This document shows positions 17,624 to 46,668 of a stretch of 64,000 bases of DNA, piece after piece. The position numbers and the translations under genes were made by a program. Below the pieces are notes generated by a model. The model was given only the letters and a program-made list of their open reading frames with translations, ran no database searches and was not told the DNA's origin. Source of the stretch: Rhypophila decipiens (lineage: Eukaryota; Ascomycota; Sordariomycetes; Sordariales; Naviculisporaceae); the NCBI GenBank assembly GCA_033297075.1, contig MU858185.1:1-64000 (forward strand), in the 5' to 3' direction. How positions within the stretch are numbered: the first letter of the stretch is position 1; each line of letters opens with the position of its first letter.

Positions 17624-20600
17624 TCAGGCAGGTCCGCTGGTCGCCTTGTTACGTTTTCCAACAGTACCAGCCAAATCCCTCAGTGACTTGGCGCCCAGCA
17701 AGTCAAAGATTGACATGTCGCAACGGGTAGTGAATACCAGCCAGTTGCGGAATTCGACAGCAACCAACGAGTCCACGCCGTACTTGGACAGCGGCTGTGT
17801 CGCGTCAATATCTTCAACAGGCCTCGCGAACATGTCGGAAAGCTTGGCAATGACCGCCTTCTCAACCAGCTCGGCCGCCTCCTCGGCGTCCTGTGCACCA
17901 GCAAGAGCCTGTGCAAGGTTGACGGTTGCAGAAGCACCATCTTGTTCCTGCTTGCTCGAGCCGTTCTGGTTTCGGTCATCATCGGCCGCCAGAGCCGCGA
18001 ACCGGAGCTCCCGTGTCCAAGGAATCCTCTGCTTTCGGACGGCACTGCCAGCGAGCCCGGTAACAACTTGACTCGTGCGGATGGGTCGGAGAGGCTCGCG
18101 GACACCGTAGTCCACCAGCCGGTGGAGATCAGTCTCCCGGATAACGCGGAACTGCTCCGTCGTCTCAAGCTGCTTCGACAGCTGATCTTTGCCGGCGTCG
18201 GCCAAGTACCCAAGGTCAGTGACTAGTCCCAGGTCGATGGTGACACAGGGGAGGCCTTGCGCCGCTCGATTCCGGGCCACGGCATCTTGGAAGGCGCCTC
18301 CAGCCGTGTAATTGGCCTGACTTGGGTTTCCTGCCATGCCGACGCACGAAGATAAGATGATGAAGAAGTCGAGAGAGCCAGCAGCCGAGAAGATGGTGTG
18401 TAGATTCCATGTGCCATCTACCTTGGGCCCCAAGGCAGTTTGCCACTGCACGTCAAGCATTCTCTCCAAGATGGAGTCGCTGAATACAGCGGCACCGTGG
18501 ACGATTCCTCGCACTGGAGGCAAACCCTTGCGAGCGCATTCTTCCAGCACTCGTCTCAAATCGGCCAGGTTGGCGACATCACAGTTTGCGAGTTCTAGAC
18601 GGACACCGTCACCGAGATGGTCTCGTAGCGGCTGGGCATGAGGGCTCGATGTGGCATTTCGCGAGAGCAGAACGAGGTTCTTGGCGCCATGGTCAACGAA
18701 CCACCTCGCAAGGGAGCGACCCAAACCACCCAAACCTCCGGTTATGAGATATGTGGCATCCTCGCTGAGTCTGGCTGGCCTCCGTTGCTGCACTACCTTG
18801 ACCAAGTCTCCTGTCGACTCGGGGACAATGATGTGTTTTTCTCCGGCATTTGCAGTTTGCATCGCCTGTAGCGCCACGGCAATCTGGCTCATCGAGTGAG
18901 AGGTAACAGGTCCAGCGTAGTGGACTGCATTTCTCGCCAACAGCCCAAGGACTTTCTCCAAGACTCGCCGCAACACAAGGCCACGGTGGTCAGCGAGTTG
19001 AGTCAAATCAACGGATGTGAAACTGGCACCCTTGGAAAACATGTCCATCTGCAGCGACATGCCGCGGTTGATATCGCTCTTGCCCATCTCGACAAACCGG
19101 CCATATGGAGCCACAAGACAGCAGCTCTTTTGCAAAAGCGGGCCAGTCAACGAGTTGATAACAGCATCGACTCCCCGTTGGCTCGTAGCCGCCAACACGG
19201 TAGGCACAAACGAGGCATCGCGGGACGAGAATATGGCCTCATCTGGAATGCCGTAATTCTCCCCGAGGAAAGAGCGCTGCTCGGACGTGCCGACCGTGGT
19301 CAGGATCTTGACCCCGCTCCACTGAGCAAGACTGATGCAGGCCTGTCCGACGCTCTCGGCCGCCTCGTGGATGAGCACGGTCTCTCCACGCTCCAGCCGT
19401 CCAACCTCGAACAGAGAGTAAAACGCCGTTGCGAATGCGAGAGCCGCGCTTGCAGCATCGGAGAAGGACAGTCCCTGCGGGATGGGGACGACACTGGTCC
19501 ATGGCACTCGCACACGCGAAGCAATGCGGCCACCGTCAGCATGCAGACTGAGTGCGACGACACGGTCACCTTCCTTGACCTTGTCCACGCCAGTTCCCAC
19601 GCAAGTGACAGTCCCGGCGGGTTCGAGACCGGCATGTCCGGCCTCGCCGTCATCATCACGGACAGTGAGACCAAAAGCGCGTGCTTCCACCTCGACCCAG
19701 CCCTCGAACAGCGGCTTTCCCATCTCCTCATCATCTCGGAACACTATACTGTCAAGACGGCCAGGTACGGCTACGTCCATCCTCAGCTGCCGATTCTCTT
19801 GTGCAGGTTGAATAAAAGGCTGTAGCTCGGGCTCGGGGTCATGGTTGGCAAATGTTGCCGTCTCGGCTTCGTCGCGGCGTACCCGGGGGAGAAGAATGGT
19901 ACCACCGCGCTCCGCAAATTCAACGTCGCCGATGAGATCACTCTTTGACGTGTCAAAGGCAGTCGAGAAGATGCGGGTTATCACGTCTTGCGATGTCTCG
20001 TCCCAGTTTCGACGCGCCGGATCCAGGTCGAGCGAGACAAACCGGTGGACGGTGTCTTCGGCACGATACGTCCGGAGCATACCAAGCGCCTGGGCGTGTT
20101 CCGGCGACGGACATTCGATGGTAGCCCCGGAGGTGATCCACATAACTCCCTTACTCTGTGTCAGTAGAGGCTTAACGGCGGCAAAGTTGAGCGTCGTCCC
20201 TGGAGACACGCCGCTATCACGCCTACTCAGGCTCGAGACGATGACGACTACTTTGTTGCTGCAGTCAACCTCGCCGAGCTTTCCAACTGTCGGTGCGGCC
20301 CCCGTAATAGCGGCAATCTTGGCTGCAAGACTCTCCAGCCATTCAATGGGAGGAACGTCAGTGGCATCATGACCAGCACAGTCGTAAACCAGTGCCACCT
20401 TGTCACTGTAAACAGACGCATGCTGCTGGACGGCGGTAGACACCATGAGACTCAGGCCCTGGTGCTGCTCCTCGTCGGAATCCCAAACGTTCACATCAAT
20501 CCCGCTGAATCCGGTAGCTTGAAGCACGCGCTGCCACGACGCCAATGGCATATTGGGGCTCAAGGCACGCTCAGGCTCTTCACTCAGCCACCAGCCAGGG

Positions 20601-23600
20601 GTTATGCCAAAGATCAACTGGAGAGATGCCCAGTCCTGCGTCGTCTCGATCAATACCAGGCGCCCGCCATCTTTCAACAGTTTTCGCACGTTAGTCATCG
20701 TCTTTTCCATATTCTTGGTCGCATGCAACACCTGGACGGCGATGATCAGATCATAGCTGTTCTCGCTAAATCCCTGTGCCACCACGTCATCTTCGATATT
20801 CAGCGCCGTGTAACTGATCTTGTCTCCCCACGCAGAGAATCGTTCGCGGGCCCGCTGGAAGAAGCCAGATGAGATATCAGTAAAGTCGTAATGACTGAAA
20901 CCGCTTGGCCCAAGGGCCTGCAGGACAGGCTCAGTACCGCCACCGGTGCCACCGCCAATCTCTAGAATTCGAGCACGAGGTCTCTCCCGAGCAAATGCAG
21001 CGACCACCTCGGCCAGCTGCTCAGTGCATCTCCTAAAATACCGTGTCTCGCTGTAGACACGGAATAGCAGGTCTCCCTCGAGCATGACCTCAAGAGGCGC
21101 CACCTCGTTTCTCAAGATTTCCACCAGACGCCGGCCAACACGCACCAACATGGCTCCCTCGGGGCCAGAGTCGGCCACGCGATCCAGGAACATGGTTTTG
21201 ACTCCCGAAGAAGCCTTGGCCCACCGCGAACTCCGGGGCGCCATCTCATCGGCCGCTGCCCTTTGCAGCTGAAGCCTCATCCACTTGAAGAGGAGCTTGT
21301 GATGCCACTCGAGGTCTGCAATGTCTGATTCCGAGAGCTGGCTTACCGCGTCAGCCATCAGATGGTAGGTAGCCCGGTCCAGATCCCGACTCGTGGCTTT
21401 TTCGTCATCGTCGGCGGAGCGCTTGAGGCGGTTGACGAGAATAGATGGATCGTTCAGAGAGAAGCTGGTCTCGTAGTCAAGAAATGCGCAGATATCCCAT
21501 GTTGTGTCTCCTGCTTCGTCTTGGCTGCTTGTGTTGTTGATGGACTGGTAGCGCATCCCGTCTACCTGAATCACCGGCGTGCTTGGCTGGCCTTCACTTC
21601 TCGATGCTGAAAAGACGGTCGAACCGACGTGGAATCCCTGACGATTGTACTGTAGCAGCTGGGAGAGCGCCGACATGGAAGACCCTGGATCTGTGGCTGT
21701 CTTGGCCGAGATGTAGAGAGCCTTGATGGAACGAGGCACAGCTGCGCCGACCTTGCGGCGGGCTTCAGTCGAGAGAGTGGTATAGGCGGCTTGGAAGACT
21801 TGGTCCAAGGTGATGGGATGTATCACATGCGACTGTTGGAAGTTGTAGGGCATCAGGTCTGTCGTGTTTGCCACCCGGAATGTCGCCGAGGAGCAATCCT
21901 GGCCGGTGTGAATCTCGTCCAACTTCTGGAAGACAGGACCATGGGAGACGCCAATCTCATTGAGCGAGGTATACACGTCCTCGGGGTCCATGTGGTGGGG
22001 ATATTTGCTCGGCTGCACAGAAAAGAGTGATGATGGCTCGCCATCTGTCTCGACGGCAACAAATCCCCTGACAGCCTCGTCCCAGCCTTGGCCGGTCCTG
22101 GAAGGACTGTAGACGCGGAAGCGGCGCTTGCCATGCTCCAAGCTCCTCTCGCTGACTGGCTCGAGGAAAAGCTGCACCTCGACACCTTCGGTGTTCTCGG
22201 GGACGACGACTGCCTTGAGAATGTCCATGTCGCTCAATCGGTAGCCTGAGATGGGGCGATCTTCTGGGCTATGCATTTGTCGCATCGCTTCAATCGCCAT
22301 GGCGATGAAGCCTGCAGCTGGGTACAAGATATCGCCCTGAACCACATGGTCTCGGACCCAAGGAATCTCGCCTGTGCGGATCATGTGTCGCCAGATTGGT
22401 GCTTTGTCGCTGGTGCCCGGAGACCGTACGCCCAGTAAGTCGTGGGGTGGATTCTCGCGACCCGTGTGCTCGAGGCTCATCTTGGCCTCGTGCCAGAACA
22501 CTTGCTTGTGGTTCCACGCATATGAAGGCAGGCCAGTAGCCACTCGAAGCCCTTGGGCTGCGCGTGGGAAGTTGACTCGGCATGTGTCTACGGGATGGCA
22601 TTTTCCGATCAGCAAACCAGCCAAGGTCTGCATGGTTTGGACGGCGTCCTTGCCCCTCTCCAGACAGGACCCGTATCCAACGTCGAGACTCTTTAGCGCG
22701 GACACCGACTTGAGACATTGGCGGATGGGACCGGCCAAGGCGCTGTGCGGGCCAATCTCAATAATGGCGTCAATTTGTTGCTGCTTTGCTTTATCGACGA
22801 CGGCTCTGTGGAGCGCCTGGGAGAAAAGCACGGGCTGGATCATGTTCTGGACCCAGTGCTGGGGACCAAGCTGGCTTGCGTCCTCCACTGGCTCGCCAGT
22901 CACGGGAGATACGAAAAGGACTTGTTCCCAGAGCGCTTTTCTGGCATCGGTTGTGCGCGTGGTATCCACGTGTTTCTGAAGGGCGGCAAGATACTGGTCT
23001 TGGAGAGGGAGCATGTGATGGGAGTGGAAAGCAGCCTGTACCCTGAGAGCGCGGGCAAAAATGCGCTCATTCTTGAAGCGGGTTTCTAGCTCCTGGATGC
23101 CGGCCATGTCGCCCGCTAGTGTTACGCTGGACGGACTGTTGACGCAAGCGATGACGACTTTGCCGGACCGGGTATCCTCGAGATACGACGTCAACTCAGT
23201 TGGACCCAGACCAACAGCCATCATGCCTCCCTCCACTGTATCAGAATTGCCCGAGGCCGCGGCAATATGCACGGCGTTGATAAGGCCGCGGAAGTAGGTG
23301 CAGGCCATGGCCTCTCCAAGACTCAAGGCCCCTGCGGCAAAGGCAGCAGCTACCTCACCGCTGGAATGACCAGTCACAGCGGCTGGCTGAACACCAAAGT
23401 CTTTTAGCAGCTCCACCAGGGCTAGCTGTACAGCACACGTCAGGGGCATGCTGAACTGCACATCGTTGACCCGTGATGAAGCCTCGTCGCGGCCAAGTTC
23501 GTCCAAGATAGACCACTTGGCACCGAACGAGGCAATGACACGGTCACACTCTTGGAGAGTCTGGTTGTATACCGGATACGCACTCATCAGCTCCCGGCCC

Positions 23601-25567
23601 ATGCCATACCATTGGGCACCCTGCCCATTGAAGATGAAACCAAGTCTGGGAGGCGTGCCTGCATTTTGGACGGGCTTTGTCAAGCTGTCGCCCAACCAGG
23701 TGGCGAGCTCTGAGGCATCAGCGGCTGAGACGGCTACCGTCCACGGAAACCGGGTTCGCCTCTCGCTGAGCGTGTATGCCAGATCATCAAAGGCGCTTGC
23801 GTCGGTGTACCGCCGGGCATTATCCTGTAGGTGCTCTTTAAAGTCAAGAGTCATCTGCGCAGCAGCGACCTTATCCCTGGCGCTCAAGACAAAGAGCTTG
23901 CGACTGGGGTTCACGGTTTGTCGAACGGCCTTGTTGCTGTTGTTCCCGTATAATGTGCTGAGTGGTCCTGCCTCTTCCAGAATCACATGGGTATTGGTGC
24001 CGCCAAAGCCGAAATTGTTGACAGACGCACGTCGAGCGGCTGACTCGGAGGATGGCCAAGCCAGGGGACGTGTTGGGATCTGCCTAGTGTTAGCATATAT
24101 CCCTCAGGAGGCAATGCCTCGTTGTCAAACTCACCTCAAGACCCAGACCTTTCAGGTCAATATCAGGATTGACTCTTTCAAAATTCATACTCGGGGCAAT
24201 CCGATTGTTCTCCATCGACATGACCACCTTGATGATAGAAGCCAAGCCCGACGCAGCTTCAGTATGTCCGATGTTCGTCTTGACTGATGCCATGTACAGC
24301 GGCTTCCCAGCGGGCCGACCCTGGCCGAGAGTGGTGCCGATGGCATTGGCTTCCCGGGGATCGCCTACCAAGGTACCCGTGCCGTGTGCTTCAACCAGGG
24401 CTGTATCGAGAGGGTCCAGACCGGCGTTGCAGTAACACTGTTCGATCAGTCTTTTTTGGGCTTCTGTGTCTGGCGAGGTGATGGATACTGTTTTTCCATT
24501 CTGATTGGCACCCGTTTCGCGTATTACCGCCCGGATGGGATCCCCGTCTCGAATAGCATCTGAGAGTCGCTTGATGACCAAGGCCCCGATACCCTCTCCT
24601 CGACCATAGCCCTGAGCTCGGTGGTCGAAGGCGTAGCATTTTCCGTCTGGCCCGCAAAGACTGGAAGACGTCAGCACACACAATGGTCGCTCTCGTTGTT
24701 TTGAACGGAAAGAATCAATGCTTCTGGCATTTTCGTTTCTCACTTACCCAGTTGTAGAAATCCCAGAGAACAGCTCAGGACTTAGACAGAGACCAGAACC
24801 GCCGACGATAGCCGCATCCGAGTCGCCGGACCGCAGACTCTGACAGGCCAGGTGAACGCCCATCAGCGAAGTCGAACATGCCGTATCAATCGAGGTGCTG
24901 TGGCCTCTGAGATCAAAAAAATGCGACACGCGGTTGGCCATCATGGAATAGTCGTTTCCCATGACAAACAGACGGGGCACCTGAAGGTGGTCGCGTCCTG
25001 CGATGTCCTTGTAGTCCTGCCCGAGCGAGCCGGTGAAGAAGGACGTGTTGGAGCCTGCGATTTTGGACAGGGGAATACCGGCGCTCTCGAGTGCCTCAAA
25101 CGTTACTTCGAGCTGCAATCTCAGCTGCGGGTCCATGGCTGCGGCTGCGTCGGCCGACATGTTGAAGAAGGAGACGTCAAAGGCGCCGACGTCCTCGGAG
25201 ATGAAGTAGCCTCCATTGGCGTGGATCTGTTTTGGGGGGGTTAGTGGCTTGTAGGTTTCAAACGTCAATAGAGAAAAGCACTGACAGCAGACACTTTAGT
25301 CGGGTCAGGATGGTAAAAGTTCTTTGCCTTGAACCTGCTTTCGGGAATCTCGGACCAGACGTCCTTTCCAGCTAATACCAGATCCCAGAGCCTGGAGGGA
25401 GAGGTCACGCCTCCGCCGAAGCGACAGCCCATCCCGACAATTGCCAGGGGCATTGATTTGGGTTCTGCTGCTCTTGTTGTACGTCCATCATTGCTGCTTG
25501 TGCGACGAGCTGTAGTAGAGGTGTATTCCAGTCCATTGCCCGCGGAGTCGGTATTGTCGGCCGTCAT
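17624..25567 (-). CDS. Highly reducing type I polyketide synthase (KS-AT-DH-MT-ER-KR-ACP)
   Basis: An iterative PKS making a reduced, alpha-methylated acyl chain. Exons are 25567-25286, 25226-24748, 24660-24135 and 24079-17624, giving 2580 residues with consistent phases (intron 1 has a GTCAGT donor). KS spans about 38-465, with Cys211 in DTACSTS and the EAHGTGT and NIGH histidine motifs. AT has Ser668 in GHSSG. DH has His1007 in HVVQGDILYP. A C-methyltransferase motif (EIGGGTGGGTE) lies at about 1470. ER is at about 1880-2190, KR has TGGLGGLG at about 2210 and a Tyr in ANYTAGG, and the ACP has Ser2533 in GVDSL. There is no thioesterase, reductase or carnitine-acyltransferase domain, so release needs a partner, most likely the acyltransferase at 38689-40176. 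The ER nucleotide loop reads ESVGQ where GGVGQ is usual. The gene is divergent from the P450 at 26523. Confidence 0.96.
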
Positions 25568-26522: not shown

Positions 26523-28447
26523 ATGATATCCACATTATACGACGATGGGCCATCCCATTTGTGGGCAGGACTCTCCATTCTGGTTGCGTCTACGGTTAGT
26601 TAGCAACGGTTTGTTTTGCTGAGACCGCGCTGAAACAAGCGATAATGGCAGTTCATCATCGCGCAAACTGCGAGGGGGTTTTACAATGTATTCTTCCACC
26701 CTTTAGCAAGGATTCCCGGACCATGGACGGCGGCATGGAGCAATGTAATTCACACCGCCGCCAACCAACTCCCCTACTTTGTGCAACAGTTCTGATGGTT
26801 CTTACTCCTGCTCCCGTCAAACAGATCCCGTACGTCATTTGGAACAACGGCGGCCGGATGCCATACAAGATTCTGGCGCTACACGAGAAATACGGTAATC
26901 AAATCAACTCGAAAGTGATTCACACAGGAAAGCTGGAAATTGAAATTAACACGTCCTCACCAGGCCCAATCGTGAGAATAGCGCCCAATGAAGTCTCATT
27001 CAGCTCGTCTCAATCATGGTCCGACATCTACGGCTTCCGACCCGGCCACAAGACTTTTATAAAAAGCGACTTCTACGAAGGCGGGTCCTTCTCCGCCCGC
27101 GGGGTGCACTCGATGGGTGTCGAGCGCAATGTCGAGGCCCATGCTCAAATGCGCCGCCATCTCTCGCACGCATTTTCGTCCGCCTCGCTCGCCGAGCAGG
27201 AAGTTCTCGTCGTGGAAAGCATCGACAAGTTCATCCGTGTCATAGGCGAGCGGGGATCCGAGACCGATTTCAATCTGACCAAGGGCTTTGGGATGCTCGC
27301 GTTTGATATCATCGGCGACCTCGCTTTTGGGGAGACGTTTGGTGGGTTGGAGAGTGGCGAGGCTCATCCGTGGATCTCGATTTCCTTGGGGGCGCTGAAA
27401 AAGTTTCCCTTGATTGATGCGTTTCGACGGTTTCCCGCCCTGGGTAGCATGTTCATGACCTTGATACCGGGCATGATTAACAAGCTGATTGAGCAGACGC
27501 ACCAGAATGAGGAGTTTTCGATTTCGTTGGTTAAGAAGTATGTCATCCCTGATTTGACGGTTTAGTAGGGGAACTGACATGACATGACACACAGACGAAT
27601 CGCTCGACACGATGCATCGCGGAAGGACTTCATGACGCGGATTCTGGACAAACGCGATGTTGAGAAAGTGTCGGATCTGCAGTTGGCTGCCTACGCGTCT
27701 GACTTTGTGCTGGGGGGAAGCGAGACCACGGCCACGACGCTATCGTGTATTGTCTACTACCTGCTCAAGAAGCCTGACATCATGGCTGAGCTGAAAAGGG
27801 AAATTCGCACGCGATATCAGTCCTATGGCGCCATGGACTCGGCCTCGGTGATACAGCTACCGTATCTGAAGGCCGTCATCTTGGAGGGCATGCGCATCTT
27901 CCCGCCTGTGCCGTTTGCGCTGCCCAGGATCGTGCCCGAGGGGGGAGATGAGATTGATGGGTGTCTTTTGCCTGCTGGGGTACGTTGGCTTGTCTCCTTC
28001 CTTTACAAGTTCTAACTTGGTACAAATCAGACTATAGTTGGAACCAACCCAGTAGCGGCGGCGATGAGCACCAGAAACTTTAGCGAACCTTTTGAGTTCA
28101 GCCCGGAACGCTGGCTGAAAAGTTCAACCAAGGAGACCAAGGAAGGGCTTGACATTCTGGGGGCCAGTCAGCCGTTCAGTCTCGGAGCCAGAGGATGTAT
28201 TGGAATCAAGTGGGTTTATTCCCACCGCTTTCTAAACTGTATAGTTTCCCTCACAATGACTGACTTGTGATGAAATCCTCACAGCCTCGCTTGGCTCGAG
28301 ATGCGGACAACCTTGGCCAAGTTGCTGTGGAAATATGACTTCAGTCTCGTGAATCAGGACCTGGACTGGCAGCGTGACTCGACAATGTGCACGTTCTGGA
28401 ACATTCCCGAGCTCTGGGTGCGTGTCAAGGAAGCCTCACGGGAGTAA
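26523..28447 (+). CDS. Cytochrome P450 monooxygenase (cluster P450 A)
   Basis: Seven exons: 26523-26594, 26652-26744, 26825-26894, 26964-27537, 27595-27979, 28031-28209 and 28285-28447, giving 511 residues. The first three short exons restore a typical membrane anchor followed by FHPLARIPGPW. A longer unspliced frame starting at 26645 would lack both, which supports this model. Further motifs are GGSETTAT in the I-helix, EGMR (ExxR), PERW, and FSLGARGCIG with heme-ligand Cys454. It resembles the fungal class that includes isotrichodermin C-15 hydroxylase. It should sit in the ER membrane and oxidise the terpene scaffold or the polyketide chain. It is a paralogue of the P450 at 40539-42330: both have the heme Cys at residue 454 and share intron sites in the EKYG-P codon and just after CIG. 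Confidence 0.92.
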
Positions 28448-28960
28448 GGTGTTGGAAGATGATGGGACTAGCAAATAAACTCGGGGCTAAAAAAACACGG
28501 TCATCCCTAAATATTTCACTTTACTGCAATTTATCAGCGTATTTAATAACAGACTTCAGAACCCTTTTCAATTAAAGAATATAGCTTGAAGAAAACCAGA
28601 CAAATTTAAAAAGTATATATATTTTACTATTTGCTAGTCCTAAGCTCTTTGCTATATCTCATATTCCATAATACAATAAATTACGTTATTTCGATAACGA
28701 GCTTTAGTGTGAAATTGAGAGAGAGACTATATTGTTTGGCTATAAGCTTATGACCGGATGAGGAAATTCGCCGGTGTCGATCGTAGGAATCGTAGTACAA
28801 AGACGGAATCCTAGCTGGTGGTTACAAGAGTTATGAGACTAAAGTATTTAGAGTGATGCTGAATACATTTCGGATTTCTTCCCCTGAAAAAAACCCGTCA
28901 ACAGCTGCATATCTCCTCAGTATCAGAGCTCAATTGCTGCAACTTTGTGTCAAAGAAACC
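28448..28960. other. AT-rich spacer
   Basis: No gene. The stretch from about 28470 to 28740 is strikingly A+T-rich (TATATATATTTTACTATTTG and similar), unlike the GC-rich coding sequence on both sides. It may be a patch of mutated repeat or simply a low-GC 3' and promoter region. Confidence 0.55.
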
Positions 28961-30002
28961 ATGGCCTCACTCAACATCACAGAGACCGATATCCCGTTGC
29001 AAACCGGCAAGATTGCCGTAATCACAGGTCAGAACTGAAGATGCACCTCCTTGTCCAGTTTGATGACTCGGGCAACTCAAATATTAGACTTGAGCTGACT
29101 CGGATTATAGGGGGATCCTCGGGCATTGGATATGCAGCTGCCAAGATCCTGGCCGAGAAGGGCGCAACGGTGCACATCTTCGACCTCAACCTGCCTGAAC
29201 AAGCAATTCCCTGTGTGCGGTTCCACCAGTGCAGTGTCACCAACTGGGCCGAGCTGCGCGCCGCCTTTGACCAGATCGGCCACCTCGACTACGTCTTTGC
29301 CAACGCCGGCACGTCGGAAGAGACAGACTACTTTGCAGACTCTCTTGACAGCGATGGACTATTGGCCGAACCGACGTATCGCGTCATAGACGTCAACGTT
29401 CGCGGCGTATACAACGTCGTGAAGCTCGCCTGGAGCCGCATGCGGGCTGATAAGACCCAAGGGAGCATTGTAATCACGACCAGCGCAACTGCATATGCAC
29501 CCGAACAATCGCTGCCTGTGTACTCGAGTGGGAAACTCGCCGTACGTGAAACATTTTCCCGGTGACAAGACAAGGGTTAACATTCCGCTCTATCTAGCTC
29601 GTCGGACTGATCCGAGCACTGAGATCGACCATGATCCGCGACGGCATCACCATCAATGGTGTTGCGCCGGCCGCTACCATTACGAGCCTCTTGCCGGCCA
29701 ATCTAGCGGCTCCAATCATGGCTATGGGGCTGCCCGTCAGCGATGCCCACTTCGTCGGACTCGCGCTTGTGTACTCGGCAGTAGCCGAGCAGGGCAGACG
29801 GGTGCAGGGGTACGGCAAGGACTCAAAGTTGAACTTGTGGAAGCAGGAGAGGTGGAACGGTCGCGTCATCCTGACGCTGGGAGACTCCTACACCGAGTTG
29901 GAGGAAACGATCGCAGATCTCTCCCCCTTCTGGATGGGTCGCGAGAACCTCCGGTTGACTCAGATGCAGCAGTCAGCGACGGATTTCCGCCCGCTGGAAT
30001 AA
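28961..30002 (+). CDS. Short-chain dehydrogenase/reductase
   Basis: Exons 28961-29027, 29111-29541 and 29598-30002 give 300 residues. Splicing restores the Rossmann motif ITGGSSGIG. Other SDR landmarks are FANAGT, a serine-rich VITTSATAY strand, and the catalytic YSSGK (Tyr-x3-Lys), whose intron falls three residues after the Lys. An Asp at the end of the second beta strand (HIFDLN) points to NAD(H) rather than NADP(H). It probably oxidises an alcohol introduced by one of the P450s, or reduces a ketone, on the sesquiterpene. It lies between the first P450 and the terpene cyclase in the same orientation, as expected of a pathway gene. Confidence 0.9.
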
Positions 30003-30534: not shown

Positions 30535-31728
30535 ATGTCTGTCCAGGTGGAAACCCGAACGCCTCTCCCGCTTTTCAACAGTCCGCGGCCCGGTAGGCTC
30601 GCAGGGGATACACCCCACCAGTTCAAGGGAACATGGAAAGTACCAGCGTCTGATTGGTCCCACGAAATCCACCCCCGAGCCGAGGAGGTTGCCCGGGAAG
30701 TGGATAATTACTTCTTGCAAAATTGGAACTTTGCAGACGGGCGCGCCAGGAAGACCTTCCTCAAGGCTGGCTTTTCACATGTGACATGCCTCTACTTCCC
30801 CCTGGCAAAGGACGACCGCATTCACTTTGCCTGCCGTCTTTTGACAGTGCTGTTCTTGATCGATGGTAATTTTGCCCGTTATCCGTCGTGACCCACACCA
30901 TTCCCGATCCAGCCCAAGCTGACCCAGCACCCTCATTACAGACATTCTCGAGGACATGTCGTTCGCTGATGGTGAGGCGCTCAACAACAGACTGATGGAG
31001 CTCTCCAAGGGGCCCCAGTTCGCAACCCCCGATCGCGAGATCCCAGCCGAGTACATCATCTACGACCTCTGGGAGAGCATGCGCCACCATGACCTGGATC
31101 TCGCCAACGAGGTACTCGAGCCGACCTTCGTCTTCATGCGATCCCAGACCGACAGGGCTCGGCTGAGCATCAAGGAGCTAGGCGAGTACTTGCAGTACCG
31201 CGAGAAGGATGTGGGCAAGGCGTACGTGGCTCGTGACTTCTTGGCTCCCCCTCGTAACTCGTTTCCGTTTTGGATGAAAGTTGACCTAAAGATATGAGTA
31301 GACTTCTTTCGGCACTAATGCGCTACTCAATGGAACTTCGGCCCACAGCCGCCGAGCTAGCAGCGCTCAAGCCGCTCGAGGAGAACTGCTCCAAGCACAT
31401 CTCCATCGTGAACGACATCTATAGCTACGAGAAGGAGGTGATTGCGGCACAGACGGGCCACAAAGAGGGCTCCTTCCTGTGCTCGGCCGTCAAGGTGTTG
31501 TCTTCGGAGACAGCCCTGGGAATCCCCGCGACCAAGCGCGTGCTGTGGTCTATGGTGCGCGAGTGGGAGCTGATCCACGATGCCATGGTCGAGGGTTTGG
31601 CTGCTGAAGATGTCAACAGTCAGAATGTGAAGGAGTACGTACGTGGCCTGCAGTATCAGATGAGTGGCAACGAGCAGTGGAGCAGGACCACGCCTCGCTA
31701 TCTCATGGCGATTGAGCAAGCCGCGTGA
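30535..31728 (+). CDS. Aristolochene-synthase-like sesquiterpene cyclase
   Basis: A class I terpene synthase expected to convert farnesyl diphosphate to a bicyclic eremophilane-type hydrocarbon. Exons 30535-30865, 30942-31221 and 31302-31728 give 345 residues, close to the roughly 320-340 of fungal aristolochene synthases. The first intron splits the metal-binding motif, and splicing restores LIDDILED (Asp110, Asp111, Glu114), matching the aristolochene-synthase type DDxxE. The NSE motif NDIYSYEKE (Asn241, Ser245, Glu249) is intact, and the C-terminal TPRY gives the diphosphate-sensing Arg-Tyr pair. Together these make an active enzyme likely. The exact product cannot be read from sequence; other bicyclic sesquiterpenes are possible. 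It is the scaffold-forming gene of the cluster next to the SDR. Confidence 0.93.
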
Positions 31729-33791: not shown

Positions 33792-35324
33792 ATGTTCGGA
33801 AGCTGGAGTGTAAACTCGAGTGGGAGTGAGCCAACATTTTTGAGACACAGTCCTAAGCTCCATAAAGCTTGCGCCAATTGTCGAAAAAAAAAGGCAAGTT
33901 GTCGTGTTCCCAGAGCTCGTGCTAGATGCAGCAGTCTGGTGTACCACACGGGTCTCTTCCCTTACATACCTGGCATCTATGTATGGCTAACCTAAGCTGC
34001 GTGTCTCCAGGTCCGATGCACGGGCGAGCTCTCAGGCTGCGAGAGATGTGAAGCCCTCGATTTGCAATGCACCTATTCCAGCGAGAAAGCAAAGCGACAA
34101 CGGAATCCGCACTCATCGGACGAAGGGCGTGTGTTTGAATCAAGACGGCAGCGGCAATCGTGCCCATGGCTCAGGCTGCCTGAGGCAACGGAGAAGCCGG
34201 CGGCGGCAGCGCCCGTCGCCGCCAACGTCACGCCACTTTCGGACCATGCCAATCATGATTTCTTCCACACACCAACAACAGCCGACGGCGACGGCGCCTT
34301 CGCCGCTGATATCGAACCGTGCTCCACCACTAGCATTTTTCCCGGGCTGACACCACCGCCAGACGGCGTCATTGCCTTGGACCACTATCAGCCTGGATCT
34401 GGGTCCGAGTCGGCGACGAGTACTGGGTCTACATACGTCACCGTGTCGTCGACCCAACCGCCCAGCCACAGCGGCATGATGACGGATACCGACGTCGTCT
34501 TTTGGGGCGACAACAGACTTTCAGCTGCAGATCATCTCGCAGCAGTATCCATTCTGTCAACAGGCTCGTCCGAGACCCATCTCAACACGGTCTGCCAAGG
34601 CCAGCATTCCAGCGAAGATGGCTCTCCAGGCAAGTTCCAGCAATCCCAGGCACAATCCGCCGCCAACAGGCAAGTTCAACCTGATCAAATGCGAGAGCCT
34701 GGAGAGTTTCCAACCCGAGCACCAGACCAGATGGGCTGCAAATGTATAAAGAGCGTCGTATACCTCATCAATGAATTAGAGACGACCTTGAGAAATGACA
34801 GCAGCCACGAATCACCAGGCATGGACAACAACAGCTTTTTACAGCTACAACAAAACAGTCACGGCTTTGACTCGGCTCTGGGACTGCACAAAGACGCCAT
34901 ACGATACGGCGAGTCCATGCGCCAGTGCCGACATTGCGTCAGCCGGACCGAGAACAGAATGTTGTTGCTGTTGCTTGCCAACAGGCTGATCGCTTTATGT
35001 TCGCACATGGCCTCAGTCTATCGAAATCTCGTCGGTCAGCCTGCCATCCCCGGCAGCAGCGTTGGTGTCAGCGTCGGCATCGAACAGTACTTTGCCGACT
35101 TGGTCATTGTGGTTGGGGAATACGAAGTTGATTCAATGACTGAGATGGGCGCGGTTCTGCGAGAACTGCTTGCGTTCCAACTGCGCTCCTTGTATCATTT
35201 TGTGACCCCCCTGTCAAACACTACACAGCTCCAGGGGGTCGAATTCCATGCTGTTAAGAATAGAGCTGCTAGCCTGTGGCGGGCTCTGCAGCAACAAAGT
35301 AATAGTGGGCTGTCACCGATCTAA
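33792..35324 (+). CDS. AflR-like Zn2Cys6 transcription factor, probable cluster regulator
   Basis: Exons 33792-33893 and 34011-35324 give 471 residues. Splicing places Cys27, Cys30, Cys37, Cys44, Cys47 and Cys54 in the C-x2-C-x6-C-x6-C-x2-C-x6-C pattern of a fungal binuclear zinc cluster. The intron lies between KKK and VRC, and its donor is GC (AAG|GCAAGT) rather than GT. A GT donor a few bases on would break the frame. The middle is Ser/Thr/Gln-rich. The C-terminal half (from about residue 240) has a CKCI block, an HKDAIRYGESMRQC block and an LLLLLANRLIAL helix, as in AflR-type regulators. It probably activates the neighbouring biosynthetic genes. The start at 33792 is the nearest in-frame ATG; an upstream one at 33711 is possible. 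Confidence 0.88.
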
Positions 35325-36355
35325 AAGATGGATTTCAGGACGATTTCTTCTTGGGTGTCATTGTTGTGCGACATACAAGCTGGGGGCCTTTTGTGGTTTT
35401 CAATTTCATTTCATTTTCGGTGCATGTTTATAAGATCGTAGAATTTGAAACAGAATAAGGGATGATGTGCCATGTCCACTGCAGGGCTCCTAACAAAGTA
35501 GGGTCTAACAAAGCAAAGGCAAAGTAAGCCAGCGCAAGGTGAGTCAATATGGCCGAAAAATGGCCCGAAGTACATCCCTCCTTGCCTTGGAAACCTTGGT
35601 CCCATGATTTCCACATGTATAACCCTAATAATAACTCTGGATTGCGGGGAAAGTTAGTCAGCAGATAGGGTTAGGGTTATGTTCGACGATCAAGGTCCAG
35701 AGGCCAAAGGGAATCCAAGGCCCTCACCAAAAGCCCTGATTAAAGTAAGGTAGGCCGGGAGATCTTCAAAGTATCCGTAAAGGAAAGTTAACCCCCTACC
35801 TCTGCCTTATTTTACTTTTGTTAGGAGCCTTGCCCATGTTCAAGTTGAAGCATGCTCTCCGTAACCTTGTCATCGTTGTTTCATGACGGTTAGCTTCGGT
35901 GCATTCACGCGCAAGGGTGGAGGTACGTACCTGTGGCCGTCCCGAACACGAATGCGAACACGCCACAAGATTATCTCGTAACTGGGACCGAATACGAGAT
36001 TATGGACCACCCGGCAAGCCTGCCTGGCAAACTGGTACATGTAATTGGGGGCCATTTTTGCTCTGGAGGCAATTGCGGGATACAGAGAATTTCTTTTTTA
36101 TTTGTCGTGGTTTGTTAGGTACCTTTGCGGGTGGCCATGCACGCCATGTTACAAACTTTGTTTTTGACTTTCAGGCGTGCCGAGATCCCGGTGGTTGCTA
36201 CTTCCATTACCTTACTCGTCAATACCAACAACTGGAAAAGGGATTGAACAAGTGAACAACCACCTCTCCCCCCACCTCCAGTTTCCCTCCCCAATGCGCT
36301 CGCAACGCCCCTTTGCCCAATTTTCCAGGGCAACCATCACCACACCTCCTTCGCA
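35325..36355. other. Spacer between the regulator and CYP51
   Basis: No gene recognised. It holds the regulator's 3' flank, a telomere-like TAGGGTTAGGGTTA at 35666-35679, and the CYP51 promoter. Confidence 0.5.
35666..35679 (+). repeat. Interstitial telomere-like repeat
   Basis: TAGGGTTAGGGTTA in the spacer downstream of the regulator, in opposite orientation to the copy at 30482-30496. Confidence 0.8.
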
Positions 36356-37927
36356 ATGGCAAACCTCATAGCACTACCGCAGTTCTCGGGCGGCGCGCTT
36401 GAGCTTGCCCTCTACAGTTCCATCGGGCTGGTCGCCGCGATTCTCATCGGCGCCCTCCGTCAACTCACCTTCCGCCCCAAGACGGAGCCGCCCGCCGTCT
36501 TCCACTGGATCCCCTACATCGGGAATGCCGTGTCGTACGGTATGGACCCGGTCGCCTTCTTCATCAAGTACCGGGCAAAGTACGGCGACGTCTTCACCTT
36601 CACGCTCTTCGGCCGCAAGATAACGTGCTACCTCGGCCTCGATGGCAACGACTTCATCCTCAACGGGAAGCTGCAGGACGTCAACGCCGAGGAGATCTAC
36701 AGCCCGCTGACGACGCCCGTATTCGGCAAGGACGTCATCTACGACTGCCCAAACTCGAAGCTCATGGAGCAAAAGAAGTTTGTCAAGTTCGGCCTGACGC
36801 AGAGGGCGCTCGAGTCGCACGTTCCGCTGATCGAGAAAGAGGTGCTCGATTACCTCAAGGTGACCCCCGCGTGGAAGGGCGCGTCAGGGCTCGTCGACAT
36901 ATCGCTCGCCATGTCTGAAATCACCCTGTTCACAGCTGCGCGGTCACTGCAGGGTGAAGAGGTCCGACAGAAGCTCACGGCAGAGTTTGCGGGGCTGTAC
37001 CACGATCTCGACAACGGCTTCCGTCCCGTAAACTTCATCTTCCCATGGCTGCCCCTCCCCCAAAACCGCCGCCGCGACAACGCCCACAACAAGATGCGCG
37101 CCGTCTACGAAGAAATCATCTCGGCCCGTCGCGCCCAAGGCGATGTTGCCGGCGACGCCGAAACCGACATGATCTGCAACCTGATGAACTCGACATACAA
37201 GGACGGCACCCCTGTCCCGGACTCCGAAGTCGCCTGCATGATGATCACCCTGCTCATGGGGGGCCAGCACTCCTCGTCGTCCGCCAGCGCATGGATCATG
37301 CTTCGCCTCGCCGCACACCCCAACATCGCCGAGGAGCTCTACCAGGAACAAGTCCAGAACCTCGCCGGCGGCAAAGCCCGAAACCTTCAGCCTCTATCAT
37401 ATTCCGATCTCGACAAACTCCCCCTCTTGCACAACGTAGTCAAAGAAACCTTGCGCCTGCACGGCTCGATCCATTCTATTCTGCGCAAAGTTATGAACCC
37501 GCTTGCTATCCCCGGCACTCGGTACGTCATCAACACCGACAAGGTCCTGCTGTCGTCGCCGATGGTCACGGCCTTGAGCGACGAATATTTTCCGGACGCC
37601 AAGTCATGGAATCCGCATCGCTGGGACCAGCGAGAGGACGAGAACGCGCAAGACAAGGAGACTATTGATTACGGGTACGGCGCCGTGGCTAAATCGTCGA
37701 CTAGGAGTCCCTATATTCCTTTTGGGGCAGGACGACATCGTTGCATCGGGGAGAAATTTGCGTATTTGAACTTGGGGGTTATTGTCGCGACTATTCTGCG
37801 CGACTACAAGCTGTCCAATGTGGATGGAAGGGTTGGTGTGGTGCCGGCGACGGACCACACGTCCATGTTTGCGCGACCGGTGCAGCCTGCGGTGATTAGG
37901 TGGACTAGAAGGGAGGAGACTAACTAG
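36356..37927 (+). CDS. CYP51: CYP51, sterol 14-alpha-demethylase, intronless; candidate self-resistance copy
   Basis: One uninterrupted frame of 523 residues with family-specific CYP51 sequence: PPAVFHWIPYIGNAVSYGMDP, an AEEIYSPLTTPVFGKD block, IYDCPN with the conserved Tyr129, LMEQKKF, MGGQHSSSS in the I-helix, KETLRLH, DYGYG, and FGAGRHRCIGE with heme ligand Cys463. An N-terminal hydrophobic anchor is present. The known reaction is oxidative removal of the sterol 14-alpha-methyl group in ergosterol synthesis. No intron is present, although fungal CYP51 genes usually have one to three. The C-terminal channel motif reads TDHTSMF (499-505) where TDYSSLF is usual. It lies between the cluster regulator and the acyltransferase. 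Known restricticin/lanomycin-type clusters carry CYP51 copies as resistance genes, so a target-duplication role is plausible. It could instead be the sole housekeeping gene or act on the product. Confidence 0.95.
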   Translation: MANLIALPQFSGGALELALYSSIGLVAAILIGALRQLTFRPKTEPPAVFHWIPYIGNAVSYGMDPVAFFIKYRAKYGDVFTFTLFGRKITCYLGLDGNDFILNGKLQDVNAEEIYSPLTTPVFGKDVIYDCPNSKLMEQKKFVKFGLTQRALESHVPLIEKEVLDYLKVTPAWKGASGLVDISLAMSEITLFTAARSLQGEEVRQKLTAEFAGLYHDLDNGFRPVNFIFPWLPLPQNRRRDNAHNKMRAVYEEIISARRAQGDVAGDAETDMICNLMNSTYKDGTPVPDSEVACMMITLLMGGQHSSSSASAWIMLRLAAHPNIAEELYQEQVQNLAGGKARNLQPLSYSDLDKLPLLHNVVKETLRLHGSIHSILRKVMNPLAIPGTRYVINTDKVLLSSPMVTALSDEYFPDAKSWNPHRWDQREDENAQDKETIDYGYGAVAKSSTRSPYIPFGAGRHRCIGEKFAYLNLGVIVATILRDYKLSNVDGRVGVVPATDHTSMFARPVQPAVIRWTRREETN

Positions 37928-38050: not shown

Positions 38051-38410
38051 TTCACCCATCACTTTGGCCAGGGTTAGGGTCATGGCAACTTCCCAGGGCC
38101 ACATGGAATAACCTCGTTTCATGGGAGGAGGCAATGCACTCGTTTAACCACCGAATTGACCAAGAGAAGCGTGGTCAATTGAGCAAAGTGCAGTCAATTG
38201 AGCAAAGTGCAGTCAATTGAGCAAAGTGCAGTCAATTGAACAAGTGCAGTGAAACACCTTGAAAATATCGCGAAATTTCATGTTATTATGCCGAGTTCGT
38301 GGGCTTCGCTGGGCTGATACATGTCTGGTACGCGATGGAGCAGTTCCAGGTTGTATTGGATGACAACTGCCATCATGTGCCATGACCCTAACCCTGACAA
38401 AGTGGGTGAA
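38051..38410. mobile_element. MITE-like element with telomere-motif terminal inverted repeats
   Basis: The arms 38051-38087 and 38378-38410 are inverted copies. They contain a perfect 19-bp core, CAGGGTTAGGGTCATGGCA (38069-38087 and, inverted, 38378-38396), flanked by a less perfect extension (TTCACCCA..CTTTG) after a 3-nt gap. The interior has no coding capacity but carries a 19-bp tandem repeat. Size (about 360 bp) and structure fit a non-autonomous element. No target-site duplication could be identified. Confidence 0.55.
38174..38248 (+). repeat. 19-bp tandem repeat, four copies
   Basis: The unit GTCAATTGAGCAAAGTGCA occurs exactly three times (38174, 38193, 38212), followed by a fourth diverged copy from 38231. 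Each unit contains the palindrome CAATTG. It lies about 440 bp upstream of the acyltransferase start. Confidence 0.9.
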
Positions 38411-38688: not shown

Positions 38689-40176
38689 ATGGCCACTGCC
38701 AGCCCCAGCTACGAGCTCAGCGCCATGGACAATGTCCTCCCGCGCTACTTCCACGGCGGCATCTGGGCGCTTCGGCTCAGAGACGGCGTAACCCAAGACC
38801 AAGTCATCTCGATGCTGCGCTCCAGTCTCGCGAGCGCCAGCCTCGCTCTCCCCTTCCTCACAAGACGAGCCTTCTCTATCCCCCCTACCCCCGAGAATTT
38901 AGTGACTGGCCGTCTTGAGGCACGCGAGCACGTCGACTGGAAGCCCGTGGTGGACTACAACGACCTCTCCAACAACCCCGAATGGCCCGACTACGACGAG
39001 CTGATGGAAGATGGTCTTCCGCAGGATCTCCTCGACGGCGCTGTGCTCCTCCCGTCTAGCCGTTTTGGGTTTGATCTGGAAACTGGCGGCACCCCGTTGC
39101 TCGTAGCCCAAGCTAATTTCATCAGAGGGGGCCTGTTGCTGGGGGTGTCTTTGTACCATGGCTTGATGGATGGAATGAGCATGGCGCTCATCTTTCGCAC
39201 GTGGGCCCAACATATGCGGCTGCAGCAGGGTGAGGAGACTGGGTCGGCTGAGATGACTACCACGCCGCTGGGCCAGGAGTGTTTTGATTATAACACGCTC
39301 ATTGACCTGTGGAAGAAGGCTGGCTCGCCTGTGGCTGAAGCAACGCCGGATGAGTGGCGCATGCTGGGTCTACTCCCACCACAAGAACCAGGGGGAGGGG
39401 AATTGCGACTGCCCGGCTCTGGGTCGGGTGACGGTGATGATGCTCCGGCACCGCCACCGGCCATGAGCACGGGAATATTCTATGTCTCTGCATCCGCCAT
39501 CGCGCGATTGTCTGCCATAGCGGCCAACGAGCCAGGCGCAACAGCAAACGATGCGCTCATGGCTTTACTATGGCGGTGCACGATCCGGGCTCGTCGCGCT
39601 GCCGCCCCTAAAAAGCCATGCTATGGCCCCGGAGCTATCACGGAGATGGACACGACGATCAACGGGAGGGCTATGCTCGGTGATCTGCTTCCGTGGCAAT
39701 ACTTGGGCACGCTGGTCTTCTTCACTACTACAAAGTTGACGGTAGGTGAACTCGTGGGGCCAGCAACGCCGCTGGTGTCCATCATCCGAGCTGTACGGTC
39801 CGCCGTCGCAAGTGTCACGAGAGAGCGCATTCTGGCCGGATATGGTCTGGCTGCAACGAGGCTGCCTGATTTCGGGGCGGAGACCCTGCGGCGTCCTATG
39901 CCTACGTTCGAAGGGGCCGAGTTTGGCGTGACGAGTCTACTGTCGCTGCCAATTTTGGACTGGAGCTTTGGCAGTGCCTTGTTTGCCAATGGTGGAATAC
40001 CGGATTATATGAGGCAGGAGAGGAGACTGTTTGATATGGTTTGTCGGTATTGTAGCGTTGGGCCGTTGAGGAGGGAGGGAGGCACCGAAGTCTTGGTTTC
40101 GCTTACAGTGGAGGAGATGGAGTTTCTGGAGGCGGATGACGAGTTTGCGCAGTTTGCAGAGTTGTTGTGTCACTGA
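38689..40176 (+). CDS. HxxxD acyltransferase, trichothecene 3-O-acetyltransferase-like
   Basis: A single-exon frame of 495 residues from the ATG at 38689. An in-frame start at 38614 would add 25 residues of no family character. HGLMD (His157, Asp161) gives the HxxxD catalytic motif, and DWSFG at 424-428 sits where the structural DFGWG motif of this superfamily lies. The N-terminal YELSAMDNVLPR block resembles Tri101-type O-acyltransferases. No signal or membrane segment is seen, so it is probably cytosolic. Because the PKS lacks a release domain, the likely role is to move the polyketide acyl group from the PKS carrier protein, or from CoA, onto a hydroxyl of the oxidised sesquiterpene. Acetylation by acetyl-CoA is the main alternative. 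Confidence 0.88.
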   Translation: MATASPSYELSAMDNVLPRYFHGGIWALRLRDGVTQDQVISMLRSSLASASLALPFLTRRAFSIPPTPENLVTGRLEAREHVDWKPVVDYNDLSNNPEWPDYDELMEDGLPQDLLDGAVLLPSSRFGFDLETGGTPLLVAQANFIRGGLLLGVSLYHGLMDGMSMALIFRTWAQHMRLQQGEETGSAEMTTTPLGQECFDYNTLIDLWKKAGSPVAEATPDEWRMLGLLPPQEPGGGELRLPGSGSGDGDDAPAPPPAMSTGIFYVSASAIARLSAIAANEPGATANDALMALLWRCTIRARRAAAPKKPCYGPGAITEMDTTINGRAMLGDLLPWQYLGTLVFFTTTKLTVGELVGPATPLVSIIRAVRSAVASVTRERILAGYGLAATRLPDFGAETLRRPMPTFEGAEFGVTSLLSLPILDWSFGSALFANGGIPDYMRQERRLFDMVCRYCSVGPLRREGGTEVLVSLTVEEMEFLEADDEFAQFAELLCH

Positions 40177-40538: not shown

Positions 40539-42330
40539 ATGAGTCACAACTGGCAACTTGGTAGTGGTCCACATGCAGCCCTTGAGAGACTCGGCCACAT
40601 AATTGGACTGGTAGGATGGCGTGAGCTGCTTGTTTTGGTGGTGACAGTTGCCTGCGTGAAAATCATATACAATGTGTTCTTGCACCCATTGGCCAAGTTT
40701 CCCGGTCCCTTTTCGGCCCGCGCGTCACTTGTCAGTTGCTTCGTGTCTCTCTTTCCCCGAGTCCAAGTCTAACCGTCGGCAGCTTTGGCGATTTTGGCAC
40801 ACCATGAGAGGGCGGTCGCACCGTGTCATCCAAGCCTCGCACGAGAAATACGGTTTGTTTCTTGAGGGGCCAATCCTTTTCTTTCCAGTGTTCTGCTCTG
40901 TGCTGATAATATCCCAGGCCCGGTCTTCCGCATCTCCCCCAACGAGCTCTCGTTCGCATCGACAGCGTCATGGAAGGCCATCTACGGCTACCCACCCGCG
41001 GGCCAAGACCAACTGATCAAAGGCGAGTTCTACGACATATTTGGCGCCGCCTATAAGACCGGCTGCATCGGATCTGAGCGGGACCCAGCCGTCCACAGCC
41101 GCAAAAAGAAGAAACTGACAGCCGCGTTTTCGTCCAAGGCGCTAGCCGACCAGGAACCCATCGTCCAGGCTTGTCTGGACCGTTTTGTTGACAAGCTCGG
41201 CCCAATGAGTCAAAAGAGCGATGGGAAGGGCATCAATGTTGTCCTGTGGCTCGAGATGATCACGTTTGACATCTTGGGCGAAATGGCTTTCGGGGAGGGC
41301 TTTGACTGCGTCCAGAACGAAAAGCACCATGCCTGGATGGACCTGATTCTCAAGCACTTGTTTGAGGTGACCTTGGTGGATAACTTGAGACGGATAAAGC
41401 TCCTACATTTCCTTGGGACTTGGCTGTTGCCTTCGCTCACCGAGGGCGTGAGGGAGCAACATGCCGGCTATAGTCGACAAAAGGTGCAGAAGCGTCTCGA
41501 TGCTGAGACGCCCCGCCAGGACTTTTTCACCCATATCACGAAGAAAGTCCGGGCTGGTGAGGTGGAACAGGAGGAGATGACGGCTCATGCATCTACCCTG
41601 ATGTAAGTCATCATCATCATCATCACCTGAGAGCAATTTTACCAGTGAACTAACTTTCAAAAGTCTCGCGGGTGGTGAGACGACAGCTACCTGCCTGGCA
41701 GCGGCTGTTTACTACCTCCTCAAGACCCCCGCAACAATGGAGAAGCTGAAAAGCGAGATACGCACCAGGTATAAATCCTACGACGAGATCGATGCGACAT
41801 CGGCTATGCAGCTGCCGTATCTCCAGGCCGTCATCAATGAGGCACTGCGGATTCACCCTCCTGGCTCTCAGGGATTTCCCCGCGTATCACCTGGTTGCGA
41901 GATTGACGGGCATTGGGTTCCGAAAGGGACAGAGGTTTATACCAGCGCTTGGGCCGTCACCCACGACCCCCGCAACTTTCACGAACCCATGACCTTCATC
42001 CCCGAGCGCTGGCTCGATCCCGAGTGCAAGGATGTCAAGGAGGCTAGCCAGCCTTTTTCGCTCGGATATCGAGCTTGTATAGGCCGCAAGTAAGTTTCCC
42101 TTCCCTTTTCTTCCTAATTTGCGCTTTGTCCTATTACAAAAGCTGACTGCATGACATACTGTAGCTTCGCATACCTCGAGCTAGCTTCTTGTCTGACCAA
42201 GATTTTGTTCAGGTATGACCTGACGCTGGTAAATGCCGATCTTGATTGGGAGGCTGCTTCGAGATGTTATGTCATGTGGTGGAAGGCGCCAGTGTGGGTT
42301 ACGTTTGAGGAACGGACGGTGTCCAAGTAA
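40539..42330 (+). CDS. Cytochrome P450 monooxygenase (cluster P450 B)
   Basis: Exons 40539-40730, 40783-40852, 40918-41602, 41664-42089 and 42165-42330 give 512 residues. Features are an N-terminal anchor ending in FLHPLAKFPGP, LAGGETTAT in the I-helix, NEALR (ExxR), PERW, and FSLGYRACIGRN with heme ligand Cys454. The first intron has a GTCAGT donor. Shared intron positions, the same heme Cys number and high similarity after the I-helix (EIRTRYKSYDEID; LPYLQAVI) make it a paralogue of the P450 at 26523-28447. It probably performs a different oxidation on the same sesquiterpene. It is the last gene of the main cluster before the tRNA and HET gene. Confidence 0.92.
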
Positions 42331-45555: not shown

Positions 45556-46668
45556 TTCAATATCGAGTGGTATGGTTATTACCAGCGACAGGTTGATTGA
45601 GGTCTCGATCGTGCATACGTTGGCGACGACATGGAAGTTGGAGGCAGCCATGTGCGGCCCCACTGGCGCCTCATGCAAGATGTTGATGCCTGTTGGTCTC
45701 GGCGGATCCGGGTTTTCAGGTTGACCCCAGAGCATACCCAGAGAGCTCAAGCACAACCAAGAAACCACTATCCTGGTTTGTAGAAAAAATAATAAACACG
45801 GGCTCCTATACTGATGGAATTATTACTGGTTACTTGTAATACCAATACATTCTCTGATCGTACCTCCTGAGGTTCTCCGGACTATGGTACTACGTGTGAA
45901 TGGGGATTGATATTGAGGATGGTTCGTAGACCTTACTTTTACAAAAAAAAAAAAAAAAAAACACAAACTATATTATGAATTCTCTGATTGTACCTTCACC
46001 TACGTCACTACGCCTATCCTATTCTGGCCTATGTCCCCTTAAACGTAGTGTACAAAGCCCCGCTCCGCCTCCTCTGCTCGCCGGTCTGCTTCCTCCGCCT
46101 CTGTGCTGGGACCCACTCTAGACGGCGTGGATTTCCCTTTCTCCTTTTCATCTTTTCCTGTCACCAGGCGTTCTATCGTTTCCGTCCCATATACAGTGCT
46201 GAAATCTCATAGTATGCAAGGGCCGAGACCACAATGCACGACGAATAAATTCCTTTCAAACATGGTTTTGAATGATATGGGTATCAACCCGGGGAGTTTA
46301 ACGGTTTGTGTATTCCAAAATATATGGCCTCGGTGAGCATGCTGGATTCGTGTCCTTTTTCTTGACAAGAACATATTCCATTCGCCGCATTCCTGCTGAT
46401 TGGATTTTAAGTTCACTATGAGCCAGCTCAGCCACGAACACAACCAAGTGTCATGTGGTTGAACGCGGCAAGCGAATAAGGTTTCCGAAAAACCCGATAT
46501 CCTCGGAACAAACTTTCCGCATTCGGCTGTTCTGAACCATTAACGTTAGCGACAGAATTGTTTTTTGACCCTGGGCAGATCTTAGCACCCGGTCTGCACC
46601 CTTTCCCGTTTCAACACAGACTCATAAACATCCGCAAAACCAAGCGAGCGGCTCAAAACGGCGACAGG
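45556..46668. other. Spacer without a recognised gene
   Basis: It holds the HET gene promoter. An uninterrupted run of 19 A residues lies at 45943-45961. Nothing else is supported. Confidence 0.5.

Follow-up and report, generated by a model that had tools for sequence, protein, structure and literature searches.

CYP51, the enzyme blocked by azole antifungals, is encoded inside a biosynthetic gene cluster of the dung saprobe Rhypophila decipiens, and the question that this locus raises is what such a gene does there. The initial annotation of the 64,000-nt stretch of DNA analysed here (the window) proposed that it protects the fungus from the product of its own cluster. It placed a complete CYP51 between a regulator and an acyltransferase, and both coordinates and identification proved right, judged by the reading frame, the motifs and the solved relatives. 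The gene order runs from a highly reducing polyketide synthase (PKS) on the minus strand through a P450, a short-chain dehydrogenase/reductase (SDR), a terpene synthase, a Zn2Cys6 regulator, CYP51, an acyltransferase and another P450, all on the plus strand; CYP51 thus sits among core biosynthetic genes. The features of the cluster are as follows.

17624..25450, minus strand: highly reducing PKS with methyltransferase and ER; 5' end approximate
26645..28267, plus strand: cytochrome P450, tailoring candidate; in exons, limits approximate
28888..29999, plus strand: SDR; in exons, limits approximate
30535..31728, plus strand: aristolochene synthase, 345 aa; introns modelled at 30866-30941 and 31222-31301
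33800..35324, plus strand: Zn2Cys6 transcription regulator; start approximate, finger motif read by eye
35481..35833, unstranded: MITE-like element with a 17-nt terminal inverted repeat; partly similar stretches on four other contigs
36356..37927, plus strand: CYP51 (sterol 14-alpha-demethylase family), CYP51A side lineage; intronless, 523 aa
38064..38401, unstranded: MITE-like element with a 24-nt terminal inverted repeat, a 19-nt core and a 19-bp tandem array
38689..40176, plus strand: acyltransferase (Transferase / TRI-like_N); ATG at 38689, mechanical ORF from 38614
40866..42327, plus strand: cytochrome P450, tailoring candidate; in exons, limits approximate

The cluster had been read as one for an eremophilane-polyketide product, which the aristolochene synthase match and the PKS domain set support. 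Once spliced, the terpene synthase matches aristolochene synthase 1dgp over residues 37-334 (E 8.6e-137). The PKS is R. decipiens QBC37DRAFT_350610 (100% identity over the searched region), and its ORF carries AT, DH, MT, zinc-ADH (ER), KR and ACP domains, with the KS upstream. Another PKS match comes from Rhypophila strain V8F06, on a contig of 43184 bases. The acyltransferase (Pfam Transferase, E 8.2e-24) is the probable ester-forming enzyme. Neither the SDR piece at 29598-29999 nor the long exon of the regulator had a Pfam match; the finger of the latter has the spacing C-x2-C-x6-C-x6-C-x2-C-x6-C, provided an intron is spliced out. To our knowledge, aristolochene-type esters carry no haem-ligating nitrogen, which speaks against self-protection. 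Aristolochene synthase, PKS and acyltransferase occur here together, as expected of the eremoxylarin type. For the eremoxylarin cluster of Xylaria hypoxylon (xhR3-xhPKS), PMC10686045 gives a terpene cyclase, a PKS and, as a label in Fig. 1, an acyltransferase; these, a P450 and an SDR are shared with R. decipiens. There, the PKS is the presumed source of the polyketide that is esterified onto the aristolochene core. The X. hypoxylon PKS is 49% identical to that of R. decipiens.

Other genes lie on either side. An amino-acid permease gene occupies 6225-8927 on the plus strand (permease domain, residues 25-464 of a frame of ~900 aa), and the second cluster P450 is followed directly on its right by a HET-domain (heterokaryon incompatibility) gene (43999-45768, minus strand). 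Further right, 48983-50633, 53691-55036, 55951-57918 and 60195-61058 hold a P450, FAD-binding monooxygenase-like exons, a GMC oxidoreductase and a second Zn2Cys6 regulator. Beyond the window, the three of six frames searched over the adjoining 10 kb had no Pfam match.

The gene at 36356-37927 is a single, complete ATG-to-TAG frame of 523 codons without introns. Of the solved structures, CYP51B chains such as 6cr2, presumably from A. fumigatus, match it best (E 2e-187, residues 42-520 aligned); chains named lanosterol 14-alpha demethylase follow. The P450 motifs are intact: KETLR at 363, PHRW at 420 and FGAGRHRCIG at 456. Similarity at the level of CYP51, the ExxR motif, the haem-cysteine loop and conserved residues of the sterol pocket (positions from CYP51 structural work) place it among the fungal CYP51 proteins, and on its sequence the protein is predicted to be active as a sterol demethylase.

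Is it simply the housekeeping copy, caught in a cluster, as the initial annotation allowed? A genome-wide protein search found two CYP51 loci above 100 bits, the cluster locus at 1200 bits and one other, and the next match, unrelated, scored 46 bits. The other is the second, intron-containing copy that the annotation had named as support for its idea.

C14:138098-139740, minus strand: CYP51B-like second locus; three exons with 54%, 74% and 46% identity

Its splice sites were read by eye, and its longest exon (385 residues) is 54% identical to the cluster CYP51. In the tree the cluster CYP51 stands apart from the two CYP51B rows included. The separate CYP51B-like locus and the tree placement both speak against a housekeeping copy, and we rejected that reading. 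The cluster CYP51 is an extra copy, not the sole CYP51 of the genome; because the assembly is in 408 contigs, a further copy may have been lost from it.

Where, then, did the extra copy come from? The CYP51 sample comprised the best 120 of 2899 matches passing the E-value, down to ~61% identity. Trees were built from 72 of these 120 rows (quick), from 32 of the 120 (careful), and from all 120 plus two CYP51B rows (FastTree). In the last, 23 rows including the query form exactly one group with support 100; this side lineage has SH-aLRT 100 in the quick tree, and the careful one supports its 14 sampled rows at 100/100. Members come from Colletotrichum, Apiospora, Microdochium, Lomentospora, Cytospora, Xylariales PMI_506 and Rhypophila. 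We found no description of the lineage in the literature searched by keyword, at the level of titles and abstract openings. The quick tree puts the query beside copies from the Colletotrichum destructivum/acutatum complex (95%); the careful tree leaves its place within the lineage open, and we therefore claim no donor.

Vertical inheritance, by which a CYP51A would have kept its original place while the cluster assembled around it, could explain why no further gene of CYP51A type turned up in the genome search. However, grouping the query with the CYP51A of two Sordariales, Podospora fimiseda and Corynascus, was rejected by the AU test (p 3.3e-7, two rows), under which vertical descent looks strained; we consider it highly improbable. 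A single clade for 7 of the 9 Colletotrichum lineage members was rejected likewise (AU p 8e-5). These p values are optimistic, because the groupings tested were chosen once the first tree was known; in addition, one CYP51B row sat on a long branch. The Apiospora arundinis records, possibly from different strains, include one copy inside the lineage and one outside (P0012, P0118). This pattern fits horizontal spread or an old duplication with many losses, which the data do not separate; we infer horizontal acquisition of the cluster CYP51, with an ancient duplication followed by many losses as a possible origin.

Some other CYP51A placements in the quick tree seem hard to square with vertical descent. 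Emydomyces groups with Hirsutella and Metarhizium (96%); Melanomma and Pleomassaria fall within a mostly Sordariomycete group; and Colletotrichum truncatum pairs with Apiospora arundinis copy 2 (100%). The rows concerned are P0048, P0053, P0092, P0074, P0087, P0098 and P0118.

The patchiness of the side lineage gives weight to the main rival of self-protection, namely that the gene is an acquired passenger: a CYP51A-type paralogue that spread among fungi for general tolerance to sterol inhibitors or stress, came to lie amid cluster genes and neighbouring transposable elements, and is unconnected with the product. The dispersed Colletotrichum members (7 of 9 tested) and the Apiospora arundinis copies on both sides of the lineage boundary would both be expected of such a gene, and so would the MITE-like elements that flank CYP51 on both sides. 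The two elements differ from each other. The 38064..38401 element contains a 19-bp tandem array (38174-38250, 4.1 copies), and its 19-nt core has 13 matches in the genome at <=1 mismatch, 2 of them its own. The pair hints at a mobile past of the locus, but MITE-like elements often sit near genes and hence are no proof of one. Against a passenger, CYP51 lies inside the cluster and not at its edge, and its protein cluster at 90% identity comprises 5 sequences vs 4 for the three PKS clusters (91-100% identity). These sizes are in keeping with retention of CYP51 among close relatives, and together with the inside position they indicate that it is probably not a transient insertion. A further point against a passenger is that CGGN12CCG, presumably the AtrR-type (azole-responsive) motif, is absent from 1 kb upstream of the cluster CYP51, while one match, about the chance expectation, lies upstream of CYP51B. 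All told, a passenger is a real possibility, if one that we doubt.

The two classes of promoter motif searched, AflR-type and Zn2Cys6, offered no sign of common control. AflR-type TCGN5CGR sites number 58 in the window vs 63 expected, and none lies between 32888 and 36824, which leaves the CYP51 promoter without one. Among 39 Zn2Cys6 dyad patterns tried, none occurred in more than 3 of 8 promoters, and no shared motif rose above chance.

What sets the side lineage apart from canonical CYP51A? The canonical CYP51A proteins of filamentous ascomycetes are ~61-68% identical to the cluster CYP51 and share its motifs; unlike them, it belongs to the separate lineage (support 100) and carries 307G/371G/500H/503M/505A (GGHMA; CYP51B numbering). 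These residues lie in three segments, of which the second and third presumably correspond to substrate-recognition segments 5 and 6.

37256..37282, plus strand: I-helix MGGQHSSSS; G at AfCYP51B position 307, where 94 of the 97 other listed matches have A
37460..37477, plus strand: HGSIHS; G at AfCYP51B position 371
37853..37879, plus strand: DHTSMFARP; H, M and A at AfCYP51B positions 500, 503 and 505

Among the best 120 of 2899 CYP51 matches, all of which entered the signature and diagnostic-site counts, GGHMA is complete in 19 of 23 lineage members and in 0 of 97 others. The four incomplete members have N for H (two), T for A (one) or a gap at 371 (one). Of the 97 non-lineage matches listed, 62 fit the signature nowhere, 33 at one site and 2 at two, the maximum; H at 500 is absent from all of them. 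AfCYP51B has 307A/371A/500Y/503L/505S, and the CYP51B of R. decipiens itself is identical there. Over all 120 listed matches, 11 sites are diagnostic of the lineage, including 307, 371, 500 and 505. They show no significant enrichment in substrate-recognition segments (4 of 11, P 0.13, taking the usual segment limits). In the query, Y122, T126, F130, Y136, H310 and the haem cysteine C463 are unchanged; the contact positions are those given in structural work on CYP51. The signature is common to the whole side lineage and thus did not arise in response to the cluster product.

Resistance changes specific to the query were considered and set aside: the four query-only columns are two insertions and two substitutions, the latter at residues 32 and 481, outside the contact positions considered.

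Substitutions fixed in the active site across a lineage could also mean a new substrate, with CYP51 neofunctionalised into a tailoring oxidase acting on the aristolochene-polyketide product. There is precedent in the fungal P450 HrL1, which PMC10686045 describes as demethylating aristolochene oxidatively. According to excerpts of PMC9605597, C. siamense had no less ergosterol after deletion of CsCyp51G1, a gene that may or may not belong to the side lineage. However, the query retains the haem cysteine and the sterol-contact residues Y122, F130, Y136 and H310, and the lineage occurs in fungi that are absent from the named acyltransferase matches, with the exception of Apiospora kogelbergensis, where the contigs of the two genes differ. 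We regard a tailoring role as improbable.

If the gene served the pathway, it might be expected to travel with it. As a proxy for linkage across fungi, we took matches of two genes on contigs of identical size. By this proxy, 12 of 42 acyltransferase matches share a contig with a listed PKS match, against 0 or 1 once the sizes are offset by 1-11 bases. PKS and acyltransferase are thus a recurrent pair in other fungi, and both sides of CYP51 belong to the pathway. None of the 12 PKS-acyltransferase contigs is among the CYP51 matches listed with a contig (114 of the 120, best 120 of 2899), and none of the listed CYP51 contigs coincides with an acyltransferase contig elsewhere by the same proxy. 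Each 90% cluster shows one contig, which makes a non-match weak where a cluster has several members, and an intron-split CYP51 could escape the comparison. The listed CYP51-PKS coincidences were the window's own contig and one contig of Aspergillus aurantiobrunneus (764537), set aside as unrelated (40% PKS, CYP51A outside the lineage). CYP51 is therefore likely to be missing from related clusters, as it would be were it a passenger. The locus tags of PKS and acyltransferase are six apart in Cercophora LCS_1 and in Xylaria arbuscula; the spacing in R. decipiens is also six, CYP51 counted, so a diverged CYP51 is possible in both.

There is a precedent for self-resistance: CYP51-guided mining led to the restricticin/lanomycin clusters, which carry an extra CYP51 beside core biosynthetic genes, as R. 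decipiens does (excerpts of PMC9231227). The R. decipiens core of aristolochene synthase, highly reducing PKS and acyltransferase is unlike theirs, target and resistance are putative here, and no CYP51 lies on the matched contigs of related clusters among the listed matches. The main text of PMC10686045 on the eremoxylarin cluster mentions no CYP51. Keyword searches of titles and excerpts found no link between eremophilanes and CYP51 gene clusters; the same holds for such a CYP51-cluster link in publications on Xylaria VDL4 (where text matches to CYP51 were CYP5150 names) and on Naviculisporaceae genomes or Podospora anserina metabolites.

The proposal of self-resistance thus stands in part. 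What holds is that the gene is not the sole CYP51, that it lies between core genes with its catalytic motifs intact, and that it is separate from the two CYP51B rows and from the two Sordariales CYP51A; the lineage signature may be added. What gained no support is the idea that the product inhibits sterol 14-demethylation. The strongest results against self-protection are that the 12 PKS-acyltransferase contigs are absent among the listed CYP51 matches and that the signature is lineage-wide and hence older; the promoter searches, too, turned up no common motif. We nevertheless favour, tentatively and at somewhat short of an even chance, the reading in which an acquired active-site variant of CYP51A was taken into this eremoxylarin-type cluster for self-protection. 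The extra CYP51A-type sterol 14-demethylase would have been acquired and recruited; during synthesis of the aristolochene-polyketide ester the product would partly inhibit the housekeeping CYP51B, and the cluster CYP51 would meanwhile keep demethylating eburicol/lanosterol. The insensitivity of the cluster enzyme and CYP51 as the target of the product are both putative. A bolder version, which we think unlikely, is that the GGHMA lineage is a mobile, inhibitor-insensitive CYP51 among Sordariomycetes that has been drawn into clusters for CYP51 inhibitors, and that in Rhypophila it guards a nitrogen-free eremophilane-polyketide ester, a new chemotype of sterol demethylase inhibitor.

Should self-protection prove true, one would expect a new natural scaffold directed at the main antifungal drug target, along with a variant enzyme to match it. 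Should it prove wrong, the patchy lineage with its near-fixed active-site signature would still serve for studying how CYP51 paralogues spread and function.
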